A stretch of 36,740 bases of DNA from Oscillospiraceae bacterium (GTDB lineage Bacteria; Bacillota; Clostridia; Oscillospirales; Oscillospiraceae). Position 1 is the stretch's first letter. Each line of letters starts with the position of its first letter. The notes below the pieces were generated by a model, which was given only the letters and a program-made list of their open reading frames with translations, was not told where the DNA came from and made no database searches. Made by a program: the position numbers and the translations under genes. Shown here piece by piece: positions 10,119 through 18,545 of this stretch. Location of the stretch: contig JAILRK010000192.1 of the NCBI GenBank assembly GCA_024698225.1, positions 1 to 36,740 of the forward strand. Direction: 5' to 3'.

Positions 10119-10667
10119 TTATTTTCGTCCGATGTGGAATACGCGCAGCACCTTGGCCGCATGGTATACGACATTCTTGCTGCGTGTCATTGCAATCCGC
10201 TTGCCAATCGCCTTGCCGCCGATGGTCACGCCTGAAATCAGCGCCGTCACCGCAATGGAAATCAGAATGCTGCGGGTGTTGAACCCCGCCTGCAGCTTCG
10301 CCACAATGACTGCGGCGGTGGTGCCGCTGACGATGCCGCAGATGTCGCCCACCACGTCATTGCAGAAGCTCGACACCTTCTCGGCGTTGCGAATGAGATA
10401 CAACGCCTCCTTCGCGCCCTTCTCCCTGTGCGACGCCATGGAATGAAACGGTTTGGCGTCCGCCGCAGTCACGGCGACGCCGATGACGTCGAACACAATG
10501 CCAAGGAAAATGAACGCCAGCAGCACGCAGACCGCCAGCGGATAGCCCGCGTCCTCCAGCGCAACGCCGGAGGCGAGACTCAGCGCCGCGGACAGCACCA
10601 CGGAGAGAAGAAAAATGCGCAGAACCCAAGGGGCATAACTTCGCGGCTTTGCCTCTTCTTTTTTCAT
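10119..10667 (-). CDS. oapA: Small multi-TM membrane protein, OapA-like (OLE-associated protein A)
   Basis: Starts MKKEEAKPRSYAPW; several hydrophobic helices; lies directly between the candidate OLE RNA and dxs, the expected OapA position. Confidence 0.75.
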   Translation of the reverse strand: MKKEEAKPRSYAPWVLRIFLLSVVLSAALSLASGVALEDAGYPLAVCVLLAFIFLGIVFDVIGVAVTAADAKPFHSMASHREKGAKEALYLIRNAEKVSSFCNDVVGDICGIVSGTTAAVIVAKLQAGFNTRSILISIAVTALISGVTIGGKAIGKRIAMTRSKNVVYHAAKVLRVFHIGRK

Positions 10668-10729
10668 ATGACCTCTCAAAACGACCGCCCGAAGGCGGCA
10701 GAATAACAGCAAAAAACTGAAGAGCGGCG

Positions 10730-11380
10730 GCAGAATAGAGTAATCCTACGGCTTTGGTCGGGTTGGCTTTCCCCGCGGTCCGCCTCCCGTTGCCGGTCAG
10801 GTGGTTCCCCTTTAAGGACCGTGCCGCGCCGTTGCCAACGCGCGATACCCGATTGCCACTTAGTCCGCACTGTAACCCCTACTCTGCCCCAAACGGACAG
10901 CCTAGGCGATTTCCGCCGCAGTCAAACCGTCTCTTAGCCTCTTTTGCAACGGCGGTTTCACGGAGCAATCGCCCTATCCCCTGGCCGGGGGATTTGGTTG
11001 TGTTCTCCGATTCGTCGCCGCCACGCAAGGCAGGCTACTCCGCGCACAGCGTTCACGGCGCTCGGGCCGGGTAGCACCGCAACGCGGGTTCTTAGCCCGC
11101 TCCGTACCAAGGTCGCTTACCAACAAGGGGAGTACGCCTGGCACGAGGGCGGGTCTCCACGGAAACAGGGTCGCGACCCCCATGCCATTAGGGGACGCCC
11201 GGAATCCGCAGGCTCCGCTTCTTCCGAGTTCGAAAGGCATAGCCTCCCTTCAGCACCCACCCCAAACTGGGCGTAAGCAGCAGGCACCAAAGGTTTCATA
11301 GTTGTGCCCTTTAAAGGATTTTTAGGCCCTTCTTAGGAGACGGCAGATCTGACTAGGATACTGCGCCGCTGTTCAGTTAT
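10730..11380 (-). ncRNA. Candidate OLE (ornate, large, extremophilic) RNA
   Basis: About 650 nt non-coding stretch with many short complementary segments, its own consensus-like promoter, and oapA-like, dxs, tlyA, argR and recN genes downstream. Boundaries approximate. Confidence 0.83.
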
Positions 11381-11385
11381 CGCTT

Positions 11386-11505: not shown

Positions 11506-11551
11506 GAAAAAAGCCCTGCCCCCGCAAACCCGTGGAGGCAGGACGTTTTTT
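11506..11551 (-). terminator. Terminator of the nitrite-reductase operon
   Basis: Minus strand CGTCCTGCC...GGCAGGGC followed by TTTTTT. Confidence 0.8.
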
Positions 11552-11562
11552 GCGCTGTGGGG

Positions 11563-12153
11563 TCATTCCGGCTGCTCGCCGCGGTGCTTTGCCTTGCAGA
11601 TGAGCTGCGTCATGCTGCCCATCGGGCAGAAGCTGCACCAGGTCCGCGGGCGGTAGAGCGCCATCACGATGAGGCCGATGAGTGTGGAGGTCAGCATCAG
11701 GCTGTAGAAGCCGAAGCTGAACTGCGCGACCCAATCCGCTGTCGTGCCGGCGGTATACGCCCAGCCCCAGGGCACGCGGAAGGTCCAGAACAGCTTCACG
11801 ACCTCCCGCAGCGACGACGCCCCGGCATAGACCAGGTAGGTCTGATGCACGATGTTGGCGAACATCGTGAGGAAGAACAGCAAAAACCCGTAGCGGAACC
11901 ACTTCGACGACAGCCACGCGGGCGCGGGCTTCCCGCGCGAGCACTTCAGAGCGCGCGGCAGGACGGTGAACAACTGTCCCCTGCCGCAGAGGTGATTGCA
12001 GAAGAATTTGTCGCCGCCGAAGAGCGCCAGAAGCAGCGGCAGCAGAAAGTCAATCATGCCCAGCCAGGCAAACAGAATGTTGAAAAAGCCCAGCGTGAAG
12101 TAGAGAATGGACCAAATCCAGAGATAGTCGTACCATTTTTTGCTCTTTTTCAT
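11563..12153 (-). CDS. NapH/NosR-like membrane 4Fe-4S protein
   Basis: Several TM helices; CNHLCGRGQ and CSFCPMGSMTQLIC cysteine motifs; ATG at 12153 (MKKSKKWYDYLW) overlaps the ferredoxin stop. Confidence 0.85.
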   Translation of the reverse strand: MKKSKKWYDYLWIWSILYFTLGFFNILFAWLGMIDFLLPLLLALFGGDKFFCNHLCGRGQLFTVLPRALKCSRGKPAPAWLSSKWFRYGFLLFFLTMFANIVHQTYLVYAGASSLREVVKLFWTFRVPWGWAYTAGTTADWVAQFSFGFYSLMLTSTLIGLIVMALYRPRTWCSFCPMGSMTQLICKAKHRGEQPE

Positions 12154-12356
12154 GCGTCCGCCTCCCTCAGCTTCATGTCGATGCAGTCGGCAGGACATGC
12201 TTTTTTGCATTTTCCGCAGCCGATGCAGCGCAGTGGGTCGACAAGGGCGAAGCAGCCCTTCCAGACCCGAATCGCGTCCCTGGGACACTCGTGGGTGCAG
12301 GCCCCGCAGGAGACGCAGCGCGTGCGCGCGACCTGCGCATAGAATTTAGATGCCAT
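12150..12356 (-). CDS. 2x[4Fe-4S] ferredoxin
   Basis: CVSCGACTHECP and CIGCGKCKKACP. Confidence 0.95.
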   Translation of the reverse strand: MASKFYAQVARTRCVSCGACTHECPRDAIRVWKGCFALVDPLRCIGCGKCKKACPADCIDMKLREADA

Positions 12357-12427
12357 CGTTCCTCGCCGGGCGCCGCGCCCGGCGTCCTCCTCTCCTGTTG
12401 TTTCCGTTATTGTGGTTCAAACGGCGC

Positions 12428-13216
12428 TCAGCCGTAGGAATGCAGACCGGGCATGAGCATGTTGACGCCCGCAAAGGTGAACAGCACCACCGGCACGGCG
12501 ATGATGGCATACCACGCCATCTTCACGCCGCTGCGCTTTGCGCGCAGCCGCAGGTGCAGATACACCGCATAGAGAATCCAGGTGATGAGCGCCCAGACCT
12601 CCTTCGGGTCCCAGGTCCAGAACGACGACCACGCCTGCTCCGCCCAGATGGCGCCGGTGAGGATGGTCACCGTCAGCAGGAGGAAGCCCAGCGCGATGAG
12701 CCGATACGCCAGGTAGTCCATCTGGTGGAGCTTCAGCTCGTCCGTGTCCTGCCGTCCGGACAGGACGACGTAGCGAAGCCCCGCGCCGCCTGCGAGCATG
12801 AACGACGAGTATGAGAACACCGCCGAGCCGATGTGGAACGCGAACCAGGACGAGCGCAGCGCGGGCATCAGCTCCGTGATTTCCATGGGCTGCAGCGCGG
12901 CATACGACAGGACGAGGAAGGCCATCGGCATTACCGCCACGGACAGCCACTCGGCGCGGTAACGCAGGCGCGCCACGCAGAGCATCACAGAGATGCCCCA
13001 GGAAAAGGCGGCGGAAAACTCGAACTGGTTGCTCAGCGGCAGGCGGTGCGCCGCAAGCCCGCGGAGCACGAGAAAGACCGTGTGCGCGGCAAGACCGGCG
13101 AGAAACAGCGCCCACGCCAGCCTGCCAAGCGCCTCGCGCTTGAAGACCGACGCGGCAAACTGCAGCACGGAGGCGGCGAAGTAGACAATCAAAATCCCAA
13201 AAAACAATGCGTTCAT
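12428..13216 (-). CDS. ccsA: Cytochrome c biogenesis protein CcsA/ResC
   Basis: WTWDPKEVWALITWILYAVYLHLR signature; multi-TM; adjacent resB. Confidence 0.93.
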   Translation of the reverse strand: MNALFFGILIVYFAASVLQFAASVFKREALGRLAWALFLAGLAAHTVFLVLRGLAAHRLPLSNQFEFSAAFSWGISVMLCVARLRYRAEWLSVAVMPMAFLVLSYAALQPMEITELMPALRSSWFAFHIGSAVFSYSSFMLAGGAGLRYVVLSGRQDTDELKLHQMDYLAYRLIALGFLLLTVTILTGAIWAEQAWSSFWTWDPKEVWALITWILYAVYLHLRLRAKRSGVKMAWYAIIAVPVVLFTFAGVNMLMPGLHSYG

Positions 13217-14460
13217 TCCTGTTTCTCCTTGTCCTTATTGTTCAGCAGCAGCGCAAGCTCCATGCGCATGCCCTCCGGCTTCGGTCCGCCGACGGCGTAA
13301 CCCGCGGCGTCGGTCCGGACGAGAACGGGCTGCATGAAAAACGTGACGTACAGCCCGACGGTCATCAGCACGAACGCCGCAATCAGCAGCGCGTTGATGA
13401 GCGTGGGCGTGCGCTTGATGCGAAGGCCCGGGTACTCAATCGGGTCGTTGAAGCGGAACGTGAGCCCCCCCACCTGCACCGTGTCGCCCGGAAACGCCAG
13501 CGTCGGCGTATAGACGCCGTCGGAGGCGACCTGAACGCGATACACAGGGTCGTCATAGCTGCCCGTCGTGTTGGTGATGAGCGTCACGTTGCCGCTGGGG
13601 TCCTTGATGTAGCCGGGAAACAGCGCCTCATACCAGACGCCGTTGCGCCCGTCGGCGGAGAGGAAGACCGGCTCGGTCAGCGTGAAATCGTCCGCGCCGC
13701 CCTCGGCGTTCGTCACGGTCAGCGAGCCCGCCGTGCCGTAGGTCTGCTGGTAGACCTTGTACGCGCCGAAGCTTGCGGGCTCGTTGACGCTCACGCGCCG
13801 GCTGCCGCTCATCCTCCCGTCGCTGAGGAGAATGCGCAGCTCACTGGCATAGTCCAGCCGGCCGTTCTCATCCTCAATGGAAAAGGCGTCCACCGAAATC
13901 ACCGTGCCGTCCGGCATGGTCAGCGACTCGCCGGGAAGGCAGGTCCGGTCGGTGACGGTGGGCAGATACAGCGCCGCCGCGCCCAGAAGCACCGTGAGCA
14001 GGATGGACAGATGCGTGATGAAGGTGCCCCAGCGTCCGAAGCCGTTCTTGTGCCAGACGGTCACGCCGCCGTCAAGGTGTTCCGCCTTACATCGTTTGGA
14101 AACCAGATAGGCGCGCAGCCGTTCTGACTCCTCGGGGGAGGTCTCCGCCTCGTTGGGCAGTTGCGCGGCGGCTGCAACGGCGTTCCGTCCGCCGCGCGCC
14201 ACGACGCGCACGCGCACGACGGAGCAGAGCGTCAGGTTGAGACACAGCAGGGCGAGCAGCAGCGCGAAGTACCAACTGGAAAACACATGGTGCAGCCCGA
14301 GCATCAGCACGATGCCGTGGGCGGCACGGTACGTCTGCGCGTAATACGCGACCTCCCTGCCCTGCGGAATCAGCGTGCCGACCACGGAGAACGCCGCAAT
14401 CAGTCCGAGCAGAATCAGCCCGAAGCGCATGGAGCGCAGGAACTGCCAGATTTTTTTCAT
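13213..14460 (-). CDS. resB: Cytochrome c biogenesis protein ResB
   Basis: MRFGLILLGLIAAFSVVGTLIPQG start, ResB-like TM/periplasmic pattern, overlap with ccsA. Confidence 0.92.
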   Translation of the reverse strand: MKKIWQFLRSMRFGLILLGLIAAFSVVGTLIPQGREVAYYAQTYRAAHGIVLMLGLHHVFSSWYFALLLALLCLNLTLCSVVRVRVVARGGRNAVAAAAQLPNEAETSPEESERLRAYLVSKRCKAEHLDGGVTVWHKNGFGRWGTFITHLSILLTVLLGAAALYLPTVTDRTCLPGESLTMPDGTVISVDAFSIEDENGRLDYASELRILLSDGRMSGSRRVSVNEPASFGAYKVYQQTYGTAGSLTVTNAEGGADDFTLTEPVFLSADGRNGVWYEALFPGYIKDPSGNVTLITNTTGSYDDPVYRVQVASDGVYTPTLAFPGDTVQVGGLTFRFNDPIEYPGLRIKRTPTLINALLIAAFVLMTVGLYVTFFMQPVLVRTDAAGYAVGGPKPEGMRMELALLLNNKDKEKQE

Positions 14461-14527
14461 AAAGCCCTCACAAAAACGGGACCCGCCCTCCGGAACGGTG
14501 GGCGGGCGACCCGCTTACGGTATGATA

Positions 14528-16702
14528 TCAGGATTGCGTTTTGAACAGCAGCATTGCCTGGTTGCACAGTGCCTCTGCCTTGTCCAGGCACTCGTGCGTC
14601 AGCGCCGGGTTGTGCGCGCCCTCGGCGTTCTCCACGAACACGAAGTCCCAGTAGAACTGCGCGTCGCGGGCGATGGCGCGGATGGCGTTGAGCTCGTCCT
14701 CGGTATACGCACCGCTCGCAACCGCCGCGGCAAGGCGCTCGGTGAGGTACTGCAGCTCGTAGCCGATGGCGTAGGTGCGGCGCTCTGCCTCCTCCTGCAC
14801 CGCGTGCACCTCGGAGACGAGATCCGCATGGCACTGGGCGCAGTTGTTGGCAATCAGCTCCGGGTCATCGAGCGGGCTGACGAGGTTGTGGCTGGGATAG
14901 GTCGTGCCGTCCGCCCGCGTTGCCTCGGGCATGTGGCAGTCGGCGCAGGTGAAGGTGTCGCGGTGCGGGCTGCCCTCGAGCAGGAAGGTTTCTATCTCAG
15001 GGTGCTGGACCTTAATCTGGCGCACACCGGTGCGCGGGTTCGTCCAGTCCGCAAAAGGCTGCCCGTCGACCATCAGGTTGTTAAAGAAGTCAAGGATGGC
15101 GTCCGGATGCATGGATTCGATGCTGTTGTGTCCGATTTTCGCCGCCTTGGTGACGGGGTCGAAGTAGTACTCGTTGTGGCACTGACCGCAGGCAAGCGTC
15201 GCCGCATCGATTTTGTCAAAGTCGTCGCCGACGGAGTCGGTGAGGTAGGTGTGCGTCACAACCACGGTGCCGGGGGTGTTGGCGTGGCAGTTGTAGCAAC
15301 TGATGCCCTCGTTGATCTGCTGCTGCACGTCCTCAAACGCCAGACGGTACGCCTCGTCGCCCATCTCGTTGACCATGTTGGTGAACTGCGGGGTCTTGCA
15401 GGTGAAGCAGTTGGCGAGCGCGTGGGGGCGTCCGGTTTCCAGCAGGTCGTCCACGTCGTAGTAGTGACCGCGGGCGCTGGAATAGGAGATGGCGAAGCCG
15501 TAGCCCTCGTAGAGGGTGCGCAGCATCGGATAATCCTCGAGATAGTCGGTGACCTCGTCGCTCTCGCGGGTCTGCATCCAGCTTTCGTAGATTTCGGGAT
15601 ACTCGTCCTGCCAGTCGGCGGCGGTCATGACGACGACGCCGGAGTGCGTCTGCACCTTTTCCGCCACGGCGTTGACCTTGATGACGGCGTGCTCCACCGC
15701 TTCGACGGAGGCGACGGCGCCCTCATACAGCGGCGCGATGTCATAGGCCTTGCTCTCGTCGAGATAGGGCTTCGCCGCCTCAACGGCGCGCAGCACACAG
15801 GTGGTCACCGCATCGCAGCTAATGGTCGCGCCGGACACGGCGTCCACCCCGCCGTCAATCTGCGCGGCGTCCTTGCCGAGGAACTGGAAGAGGAAGTAAT
15901 CCTGTTCAATCAGGTCGCCCTTGCCGGGGGTCTCCTGATGCTTGGCGGGGTCGATGTAGATGCCGGCGACCTGTCCGCTGTGCGCGACGCCAACCTGCAC
16001 CTGAATGTCGCCGTTGCGGCCCTTGCCGGTGACATAGACCACCGCGCCGGCGTCAGAGGTGTAGAGCTCGTCCACGCCCTCGGGCGCGGGGCTGACCGCT
16101 TCCTTCGTCGTCGCGCCGGGCAGCACGCCGCCGAACTGCGTGTCCTCCGGAAGGTCAAGCTCCGGCGAGGGCGAGACCAGCTTCTGCAGGAAGTAGCCGG
16201 AGCTGTTCACCGCAGAAACAACGGAGGCGGAGCTGATGGTCGCGCCGGACACGGCGTCCACCGTCTCCTTGAGCTTCAGCGGCACGGCGAGACCGGCAAA
16301 CTGGTCAAGGAAGGCGGGCTCCTGCACGCGCGAGCCGAGACCCGGCGTCTCTTTGAACTTCTGCCCGCCGGGCTGCACGGCAAGGATATTGCCCTCGAGG
16401 TCAAAGCCCGTGAGCACCTCGACGGGGCCCTGGCAGCCGGTGACCGTCAGTTGTGTGACGTAGCCAATCAGCTCGCCGTTGCTGTAGGCCTCGTAGCAGG
16501 CGTCCACGCTGCTGTCCTCGCCCAGCTCGACGCTGCGGAATTCGTCGGCCGCGGCAAAGACCGCCTGGCGGTCACGCACCGCCTGACGCTCTGCGTTCTC
16601 GGCAATTCTGTCGCGCGTCATCAGGTCCACCCCGCCAAGCAATGCGGCGACGATGACGCCGATGAGCGTCAGAACCAGCCAGGAGGGTAGCTTGTTTTTC
16701 AT
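14528..16702 (-). CDS. nrfA: Fusion: N-terminal TM anchor, two FMN-binding (RnfG/NqrC-type) domains and a pentaheme NrfA nitrite reductase domain
   Basis: DAVSGATIS motif twice; heme motifs CFTCK, CYNCH, CGQCH, CADCH, CAQCH; NrfA-like ARGHYY, CGQCHNEYYF, KVQHPEIET, CADCHMPEA. Confidence 0.93.
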   Translation of the reverse strand: MKNKLPSWLVLTLIGVIVAALLGGVDLMTRDRIAENAERQAVRDRQAVFAAADEFRSVELGEDSSVDACYEAYSNGELIGYVTQLTVTGCQGPVEVLTGFDLEGNILAVQPGGQKFKETPGLGSRVQEPAFLDQFAGLAVPLKLKETVDAVSGATISSASVVSAVNSSGYFLQKLVSPSPELDLPEDTQFGGVLPGATTKEAVSPAPEGVDELYTSDAGAVVYVTGKGRNGDIQVQVGVAHSGQVAGIYIDPAKHQETPGKGDLIEQDYFLFQFLGKDAAQIDGGVDAVSGATISCDAVTTCVLRAVEAAKPYLDESKAYDIAPLYEGAVASVEAVEHAVIKVNAVAEKVQTHSGVVVMTAADWQDEYPEIYESWMQTRESDEVTDYLEDYPMLRTLYEGYGFAISYSSARGHYYDVDDLLETGRPHALANCFTCKTPQFTNMVNEMGDEAYRLAFEDVQQQINEGISCYNCHANTPGTVVVTHTYLTDSVGDDFDKIDAATLACGQCHNEYYFDPVTKAAKIGHNSIESMHPDAILDFFNNLMVDGQPFADWTNPRTGVRQIKVQHPEIETFLLEGSPHRDTFTCADCHMPEATRADGTTYPSHNLVSPLDDPELIANNCAQCHADLVSEVHAVQEEAERRTYAIGYELQYLTERLAAAVASGAYTEDELNAIRAIARDAQFYWDFVFVENAEGAHNPALTHECLDKAEALCNQAMLLFKTQS

Positions 16703-16766: not shown

Positions 16767-16795
16767 ATCATAGCATACCCGTTTGCTTCTTGCAA
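16767..16795 (-). promoter_or_regulatory. Putative promoter of the nrfA-fusion operon
   Basis: TTGCAA-N17-TATGAT on the minus strand. Confidence 0.65.
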
Positions 16796-16856: not shown

Positions 16857-18263
16857 TCAATGCTTCCGCGCGCTTTGGACGACCATACCGGTGAGCGCAA
16901 AGAGCGCAACCACGTTCGGCAGCACCATGAAGTTGTTGAGCAGGTCCTGCAGGTCCCAGACGAAGTCGCTGGAGAACACCGTGCCGAGGAACACGAACGA
17001 GAGCGCGATGACGTTGTAGACCGCGGCGGCGCGCTTGGGATGCTTGCCGCCGAAGAGATACACGGCGTTGATTCTGCCGAACAGGTTCCAGCTCAGAATC
17101 GTGGAAAAGGCGAAAAACAGCAGACAGATTGCCACGAACATTGCGCCGAAGCTGCCGAACACGGTGCCAAACGCGGTCTGGGCAAGGTTGTTTTTGCCCA
17201 GTTGCTCCGTCACCGCGCCGCTGTAGCCGCCGGCAAGCGGGCCGTCGGCGGTGTAGAGTGTGGAGATGATGACCAGCGCGTTGAGCGTCAGCACGACAAA
17301 GGTGTCGATGAACACGCCGACCATGGCGACGACGCCCTGCTCATGCGCGGTTTTGACGTTCGCCTGCGCGTGGGCGTGCGGTGTGGAGCCCATGCCCGCC
17401 TCGTTGGAGAATAGGCCGCGCTTTGCGCCCTGGGTCACCGCCAGCTTGATGGCCGTGCCAAAGCCGCCGCCGAGAATCGCCTGCGGCTGGAAGGCGTAGC
17501 GGAAAATCATGCCGACCGTGGCGGGCAGATAGCGAACGCGCGCCACAAGCACCACCAGACCGCCGAGCAGGAACACCGCCGCCATCAGCGGGACAATCTT
17601 CTCGGTCACCGCGGCAAGACGCTGTACGCCGCCGAGGAAAATCACCGCACAGACCGCCACCAGCACGATGCCGACCACCCAGGCGGGAATGCCGAAGGCG
17701 CTTTCCAGATTGCCGCCGATGGAGTTGGACTGCACCATGCAGCCCATGAAGCCGAGCGCGAGGATGATTGCAACGGCGAAGAAGCCGGCGAGGAATTTCC
17801 CGAAGCCGCCCCGGAACGCCGTGGTGATGTAATACACGGGTCCGCCGTGGATTTCGCCGTCCGCTCCGGTTCTGCGCGTCTGCACCGCAAGCGTCGCCTC
17901 GGCGTAGATGGTCGCCATGCCGAGGAAGGCAATGAGCCACATCCAGAAGATTGCGCCGGGACCGCCGGTCAGAATCGCGCCGGACGCGCCGACGATGTTG
18001 CCCGTGCCGACCTGCGCGGCAATGGCGGTGGCGAGCGCCTGAAAGGAGCTCATGCCGCTGTTCTGCTTCTCGCCGAAGAGGCGGATGCTGCCGAAGGTGC
18101 GGCGCAGACCCTCGCCGAAGCAGCGAATCTGCACGAAGCGCGTGCGCAGCGAGTACCAGAGCCCGATGCCGATGAGCAGGAACACCAGCAGATTGCCGAT
18201 GCCGCTGTCCAGCGAGGATACGACGGGGTAAAGCGTGGATTCCAGGGTGTGCATGGGTTTCAT
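16857..18263 (-). CDS. AGCS-family sodium:alanine/glycine symporter
   Basis: GTGNIVGASGAILTGGPGAIFWMW; FSNEAGMGSTPHAHA; glycine riboswitch upstream. Confidence 0.94.
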   Translation of the reverse strand: MKPMHTLESTLYPVVSSLDSGIGNLLVFLLIGIGLWYSLRTRFVQIRCFGEGLRRTFGSIRLFGEKQNSGMSSFQALATAIAAQVGTGNIVGASGAILTGGPGAIFWMWLIAFLGMATIYAEATLAVQTRRTGADGEIHGGPVYYITTAFRGGFGKFLAGFFAVAIILALGFMGCMVQSNSIGGNLESAFGIPAWVVGIVLVAVCAVIFLGGVQRLAAVTEKIVPLMAAVFLLGGLVVLVARVRYLPATVGMIFRYAFQPQAILGGGFGTAIKLAVTQGAKRGLFSNEAGMGSTPHAHAQANVKTAHEQGVVAMVGVFIDTFVVLTLNALVIISTLYTADGPLAGGYSGAVTEQLGKNNLAQTAFGTVFGSFGAMFVAICLLFFAFSTILSWNLFGRINAVYLFGGKHPKRAAAVYNVIALSFVFLGTVFSSDFVWDLQDLLNNFMVLPNVVALFALTGMVVQSARKH

Positions 18264-18314: not shown

Positions 18315-18365
18315 GGTCAGGTCAAAAGAGACGACGGCGCAGCGCAGAGACGCCGTGTCGAATCG

Positions 18366-18545
18366 TCAATTTCTCTGTCCTTTTGCCTGAGAGATTCACG
18401 CCTGCGCGCTTTCACCTTCGGCACCCGCGGTGCGGGCTTCTCCAGAGTCACATCCACGCACAGTCCTCTCCCCTTTCGGGTCGCCTGAGAGTTTCGCTCC
18501 TTCGGCAAGCCGTATGCTTCGGCTTTTTCCTGTGCGCTTCATCTG
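18366..18545 (-). ncRNA. Tandem glycine riboswitch
   Basis: Two aptamer-like units on the minus strand: GCCGAAGGAGCGAAACTCTCAGGCGACCCGAAAGGGGAGAGGACTG and GGTGCCGAAGGTGAAAGCGCGCAGGCGTGAATCTCTCAGGCAAAAGGACAGAGAA. Confidence 0.95.

Follow-up and report, generated by a model that had tools for sequence, protein, structure and literature searches.

The question raised by this locus is how electrons reach an NrfA that is encoded without NrfH and is preceded, in the same polypeptide, by two flavin-binding domains, given that NrfA is classically supplied with electrons by NrfH or by NrfBCD. The analyzed window (36,740 nucleotides) is one whole contig (C30) of an Oscillospiraceae MAG of 2.03 Mb that is 89% complete. 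Five open reading frames were confirmed on its minus strand in the order given in a preliminary description of this DNA: a fused nrfA gene, resB, ccsA, a ferredoxin gene and a gene encoding a NapH-like membrane protein. Their junctions are short or overlapping, with overlaps of 4 bp between resB and ccsA and between the ferredoxin and NapH-like genes, and a gap of 71 bp between ccsA and the ferredoxin gene. A promoter-like site, recognized by a consensus scan only, is located 5' of the fusion gene at 16767..16795 on the minus strand (TTGCAA-17-TATGAT, with TG before the second hexamer).

The fusion gene (14528..16702, minus strand) encodes a protein of 724 amino acids, which was analyzed with Pfam and NCBIfam models, alignments with NrfA and RnfG, motifs, hydropathy and Foldseek. 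Its earlier designation as FMN-FMN-NrfA holds for two FMN_bind domains and an NrfA part, with the correction that the first of the two FMN domains is an entire RnfG. Residues 1-176 comprise an N-terminal transmembrane helix, evident from hydropathy and from the RnfG alignment, and a full-length RnfG match whose ETxGxG and SGAT (T155) motifs align with those of the native RnfG; this head is 38% identical (60/156) to the RnfG encoded elsewhere in the same genome. The RnfG model TIGR01947 gave 133.8 bits with the whole fusion (cut-off 102), a score that sums two stretches, and 87.9 bits with the RnfG domain alone in the genome search. The second FMN_bind domain spans residues 228-307 (SGAT T293), and the two SGAT motifs suggest that FMN would be bound covalently to this protein. 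ApbE was not found in the same MAG (89% complete), whereas 20 of the 22 genomes searched contain it, three genus-mates among them.

The NrfA part (residues 362-718) contains the five heme motifs expected of a pentaheme NrfA, the first being of the CxxCK type (CFTCK 432) and the other four of the CxxCH type (CYNCH 469, CGQCH 505, CADCH 586 and CAQCH 621). Alignment with the solved NrfA structures PDB 3ubr and 2j7a places the catalytic residues Arg411, Tyr512 and His567 in the motifs SARGH, CHNEYYF and VQHPE; these residues are invariant across 18 fusions, and the catalytic Lys is likewise conserved. The Pfam model PF02335 scored 240.9 bits, above its gathering score of 24.1, and the NCBIfam NrfA equivalog model NF008339 reached 192.1 bits against a cut-off of 595, so that the NrfA of the fusion must be considered divergent. 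An AlphaFold model of the fusion was of low confidence (pLDDT 64); Foldseek retrieved NrfA and RnfG folds only, and the RnfG matches obtained with this low-confidence model were the solved RnfG proteins of C. tetanomorphum and A. woodii.

The two genes that follow the fusion encode the cytochrome c maturation System II proteins ResB (13213..14460, minus strand; PF05140, 1.2e-43) and CcsA/CcsB (12428..13216, minus strand; TIGR03144, 227.6 bits with a cut-off of 187.6, and PF01578). A scan of contigs yielded 258 related stretches. The 80 that were retained came mostly from gut and rumen Oscillospiraceae, judging by their titles, and the order NrfA-ResB-CcsA was conserved in most of these 80. NrfA is uncommon in the family (31 of 401 genomes), and the same search, which listed eight genus-mates, found it in none of them; plasmid records contained only ordinary NrfA proteins with less than 60% identity. 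ResB was present in all 17 genomes with NrfA and in none of 31 genomes without it, a count that corresponds to fewer independent events because the genomes are related. Since ResB tracks NrfA in this way, the ResB/CcsA system of these genomes probably serves NrfA alone.

The block itself contains no NrfH gene, as previously described, and a genome-wide search with TIGR03153 found none in the MAG (89% complete) nor in 27 other NrfA-containing genomes of the family. The sole match in this set (16.7 bits) fell inside the NrfA gene of genome G773, and a positive control from another family (G643) was recognized with 88.9 bits. Of the earlier interpretation, an NrfA without NrfH, a dedicated ResB/CcsA and the entry of electrons through flavin domains are supported, the last as a prediction from sequence.

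Other arrangements were observed among the relatives. In four loci (L040, L042, L043 and L077) a second NrfA gene, unfused and encoding 424-429 amino acids, lies between the RnfG-FMN-NrfA gene and resB. In the closest fused relative (L044:8995-11398) the stretch that separates the two SGAT motifs carries a deletion in frame, and resB is shortened internally, which may reflect either real decay or assembly collapse.

The authenticity of the contig has been considered from its DXS gene, whose product is most similar to those of genus-mates (79-82% identity for several of them and 69-71% for others) and to that of the L044 genome. The gene order around DXS is kept in genus-mates, where the nrf block is missing. 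A misassembled contig was therefore ruled out, and the block was interpreted as a patchy insertion in an authentic contig. Just after the block an OLE RNA was found at 10708-11385 on the minus strand (RF01071, 388 bits), and downstream of it are DXS and a CNNM-like membrane protein of 197 amino acids (10119-10712) that is an OapA candidate. On the other side, a glycine riboswitch (RF00504, 59.6 bits) at 18365-18455 on the minus strand is located upstream of an open reading frame of 468 amino acids (16857-18263), named an AlsT-like symporter by inspection only.

The last two genes of the block encode a 2x[4Fe-4S] ferredoxin of 68 amino acids with Fer4 matches (12150..12356, minus strand) and a membrane Fe-S protein of 196 amino acids (11563..12153, minus strand, with ATG at 12153). 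The name NapH/NosR-like given to the latter is based only on its Fer4_5 domain (PF12801), since the NCBIfam NapH models reached 14.8-14.9 bits against cut-offs of 213-234. In the preliminary description this pair was regarded as part of a redistributed NosR, in which the local ferredoxin and the NapH-like protein would convey electrons through the membrane, first to the FMN domains and then to NrfA. Such a route in this lineage is consistent with the location of the pair on the same strand 71 bp past ccsA, with no promoter-like site in the gap, and with the possible terminator 3' of the NapH-like gene (about 11506..11551, minus strand), which is legible as a stem-loop followed by T6, although its loop exceeds the criteria of the terminator scanner and it was consequently unlisted. 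A NapH-like protein beside a separate FMN-binding protein is also a described class, with 539 gene clusters (PMC8238504). However, among the 74 distinct NrfA-ResB-CcsA loci in which 1 kb or more of sequence extends past ccsA, the NapH-like gene was adjacent only in this contig, and the other 35 of 36 NrfA-containing genomes lacked a homologue anywhere, including that of L044, in which no ferredoxin/NapH pair follows ccsA. The pair is not kept with fused NrfA in relatives, which is a refuting outcome named in the preliminary description, and a redistributed NosR is not supported as the conserved electron input.

The NapH-like gene was present in 41 of 221 family genomes, 40 besides this one, as a stand-alone module in varied contexts, and the ferredoxin gene immediately preceded it wherever its surroundings were read in those genomes. 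In genus-mates a thioredoxin gene and a CoA-disulfide-reductase-like gene are located 3' of the pair. The two genes form a conserved module in the family (L123-L151 and L172-L191). Together with an FMN header that matches RnfG and with relatives that tie NrfA to Rnf operons, these contexts make electron input from the pair very unlikely even in this lineage. The most likely interpretation is that the pair is a neighbor unrelated to the NrfA block or recruited locally, and it may have a private role or have been recruited recently in this lineage.

Linkage to Rnf was found in relatives of the block. In ten related loci NrfA is located directly after rnfB of an Rnf operon. The order rnfC-rnfD::rnfG-rnfE-rnfA-rnfB-nrfA-resB was found in L152-L155, L157 and L093 (six or seven of the ten loci were readable in full); in L158 and L159 rnfC, rnfD::rnfG, rnfE and rnfA were listed and RnfB was masked by overlapping ORF choices, and L097 and L156 are cut by the ends of the contig or of the fetched sequence. 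All six Rnf proteins of L152 were recognized by NCBIfam models, with RnfC, RnfD, RnfG, RnfE and RnfA above the cut-offs and RnfB passing TIGR01944. In L116/L233, in addition, the FMN-NrfA cassette and rnfCDGEAB are arranged convergently. The NrfA proteins linked to rnf appear at two separate places of the NrfA tree, and one group of RnfG-fused NrfA proteins has those of L093 and L097 as its sister (SH-aLRT 95).

The RnfG heads of the seven fusions group together in a single clade (100/98), separate from native RnfG, whereas the AU test rejected a common origin of the NrfA tails joined to them (p-AU 9e-10). Heads and tails have therefore been reshuffled.

The genome under study has its own rnf operon on contig C270 (L222), with a normal RnfG and a contig end within rnfB. 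The fusion is located outside this operon. Replacement of a missing RnfG by the fusion was ruled out, as rnfG is present in the operon. Rnf is common in the family with or without NrfA, so that co-occurrence of both systems is uninformative.

Because close relatives have an unfused NrfA inside an Rnf operon and this genome encodes its own RnfG-NrfA fusion, electrons are probably dumped from ferredoxin onto nitrite through Rnf and not through NrfH. The reading that we favor, and consider somewhat probable, is that NrfA serves as an extracytosolic electron sink for Rnf, receiving ferredoxin electrons via covalent flavins with no quinol dehydrogenase. Several observations weigh against it, namely the location of the fusion outside an rnf operon that keeps its own RnfG, the lack of a detected ApbE in this MAG, the weak model of the fusion, and the diversity of the region preceding NrfA, which encodes RnfG-FMN in 7 loci, a single transmembrane-FMN header other than RnfG in about 50 and no FMN header in about 29, most of the loci of the last two types having no Rnf gene nearby.

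The numerous headers unlike RnfG are also compatible with another donor. The FMN domains could be generic adaptors fed by a different membrane donor, such as an NADH or quinol oxidoreductase, as in FMN-tethered extracytosolic FAD reductases, the likeness to RnfG being ancestry only. The about 50 loci with a transmembrane-FMN-NrfA protein that is not of the RnfG type would fit this explanation, as would an extracytosolic reductase with FMN_bind and FAD_binding_2 domains encoded directly upstream of FMN-NrfA in L059, L060, L064 and L071, and a separate FMN_bind protein encoded in trans after ccsA in L162 (2606-3091, minus strand), where NrfA is unfused. The retention of the full RnfG, including its transmembrane helix, in seven fusions and the presence of NrfA within rnf operons in two separate NrfA clades speak against an adaptor of this kind, and we regard a different donor as rather doubtful.

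In the favored route to NrfA from Rnf, the cassette would be a patchily distributed NrfA-ResB-CcsA system of gut Oscillospiraceae that forms ammonium from nitrite on the outer side of the membrane. Rnf would receive electrons from reduced ferredoxin (or NADH) and release them at its outer face through covalently bound FMN. The RnfG-like FMN domain of the fusion could act as an alternative RnfG or dock beside the native one, and electrons would then pass to the second FMN domain, to the five NrfA hemes of the same polypeptide and finally to nitrite, the presumed substrate. ResB and CcsA would attach the hemes, including that at the lysine motif. Flavinylation, topology, docking to Rnf and the direction of electron flow are predicted from domains, motifs and gene neighborhoods. 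In a broader form of this proposal, which we give an even chance, Rnf in these gut Oscillospiraceae would be a ferredoxin:nitrite oxidoreductase, and a dedicated RnfG paralogue fused to NrfA, or an NrfA ending the rnf operon, would turn nitrite ammonification into the outer exit for electrons from the ion pump, that is, a quinone-independent nitrite respiration of fermenters.

The same electron route may serve a different purpose, with detoxification of nitrite, NO or hydroxylamine as the main role instead of respiration. A hydroxylamine reductase gene (hcp) is found near the fused NrfA in L040, L041, L042, L043 and L077, and four of these five loci have tandem NrfA copies. There is no hcp neighbor in the window analyzed here, and NrfA enzymes can perform both functions, so that this point concerns the role more than the mechanism; detoxification as the main role seems unlikely.

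NrfA and RnfG are known proteins, and so is a multi-flavinylated RnfG that carries hemes. Two NrfA reviews (PMC12285233 and PMC8840924) name neither Rnf nor FMN in their text. In the literature searched, no description was found of rnf-nrfA operons, nor of an NrfA that lacks NrfH, comes with its own ResB/CcsA and is joined to RnfG or encoded in rnf operons. If the proposal is correct, a widespread NrfH-less NrfA tied to Rnf would be a ferredoxin-driven nitrite sink for fermentative gut and rumen Clostridia, with a bearing on ammonia formation and on the competition for reducing equivalents.

Compared with known systems, the fusion shares the pentaheme NrfA, the CxxCK motif and the catalytic Arg, Tyr and His with NrfHA, represented by Desulfovibrio NrfHA (2j7a) and by the Parabacteroides nrfHA-resB-ccsA locus (L121), and the nrfA-resB-ccsA gene order of Bacteroidota is the same as in this block. 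In contrast to NrfHA, the block has no NrfH, and the anchor and donor domains are RnfG and FMN domains fused to NrfA. NosR and NapH-like FMN systems (PMC8238504) resemble the block in that FMN_bind domains occur in the neighborhood of a Fer4_5 membrane protein, but here the genes are separate, their pairing with NrfA is not conserved and the FMN header is of the RnfG type. As in the FMN-FAD_binding_2 extracytosolic reductases of Gram-positive bacteria, an FMN_bind domain tethers a reductase domain outside the membrane, the catalytic domain being a flavoprotein in those enzymes and a pentaheme cytochrome in the fusion.

A multi-flavinylated RnfG with a multi-heme domain has been proposed as a branch from Rnf in Christensenellales (PMC8238504, Fig. 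6H). Both this protein and the fusion are RnfG proteins with more than one FMN domain joined to a multi-heme domain, a comparison made by description only; in the text of that work the heme domain is not named as an NrfA, and neither a link with ResB/CcsA nor rnf operons carrying NrfA are described. In Methanosarcina acetivorans the multiheme cytochrome MmcA, encoded in the rnf operon, receives electrons from Rnf outside the membrane (PMC11024163). Both systems are precedents for the favored route. MmcA is a relative of octaheme tetrathionate reductase and an electron conduit and, unlike the protein described here, is neither an NrfA nor fused to RnfG. If electrons do reach NrfA from Rnf, the archaeal principle of MmcA and Rnf would be extended to a bacterial terminal reductase.
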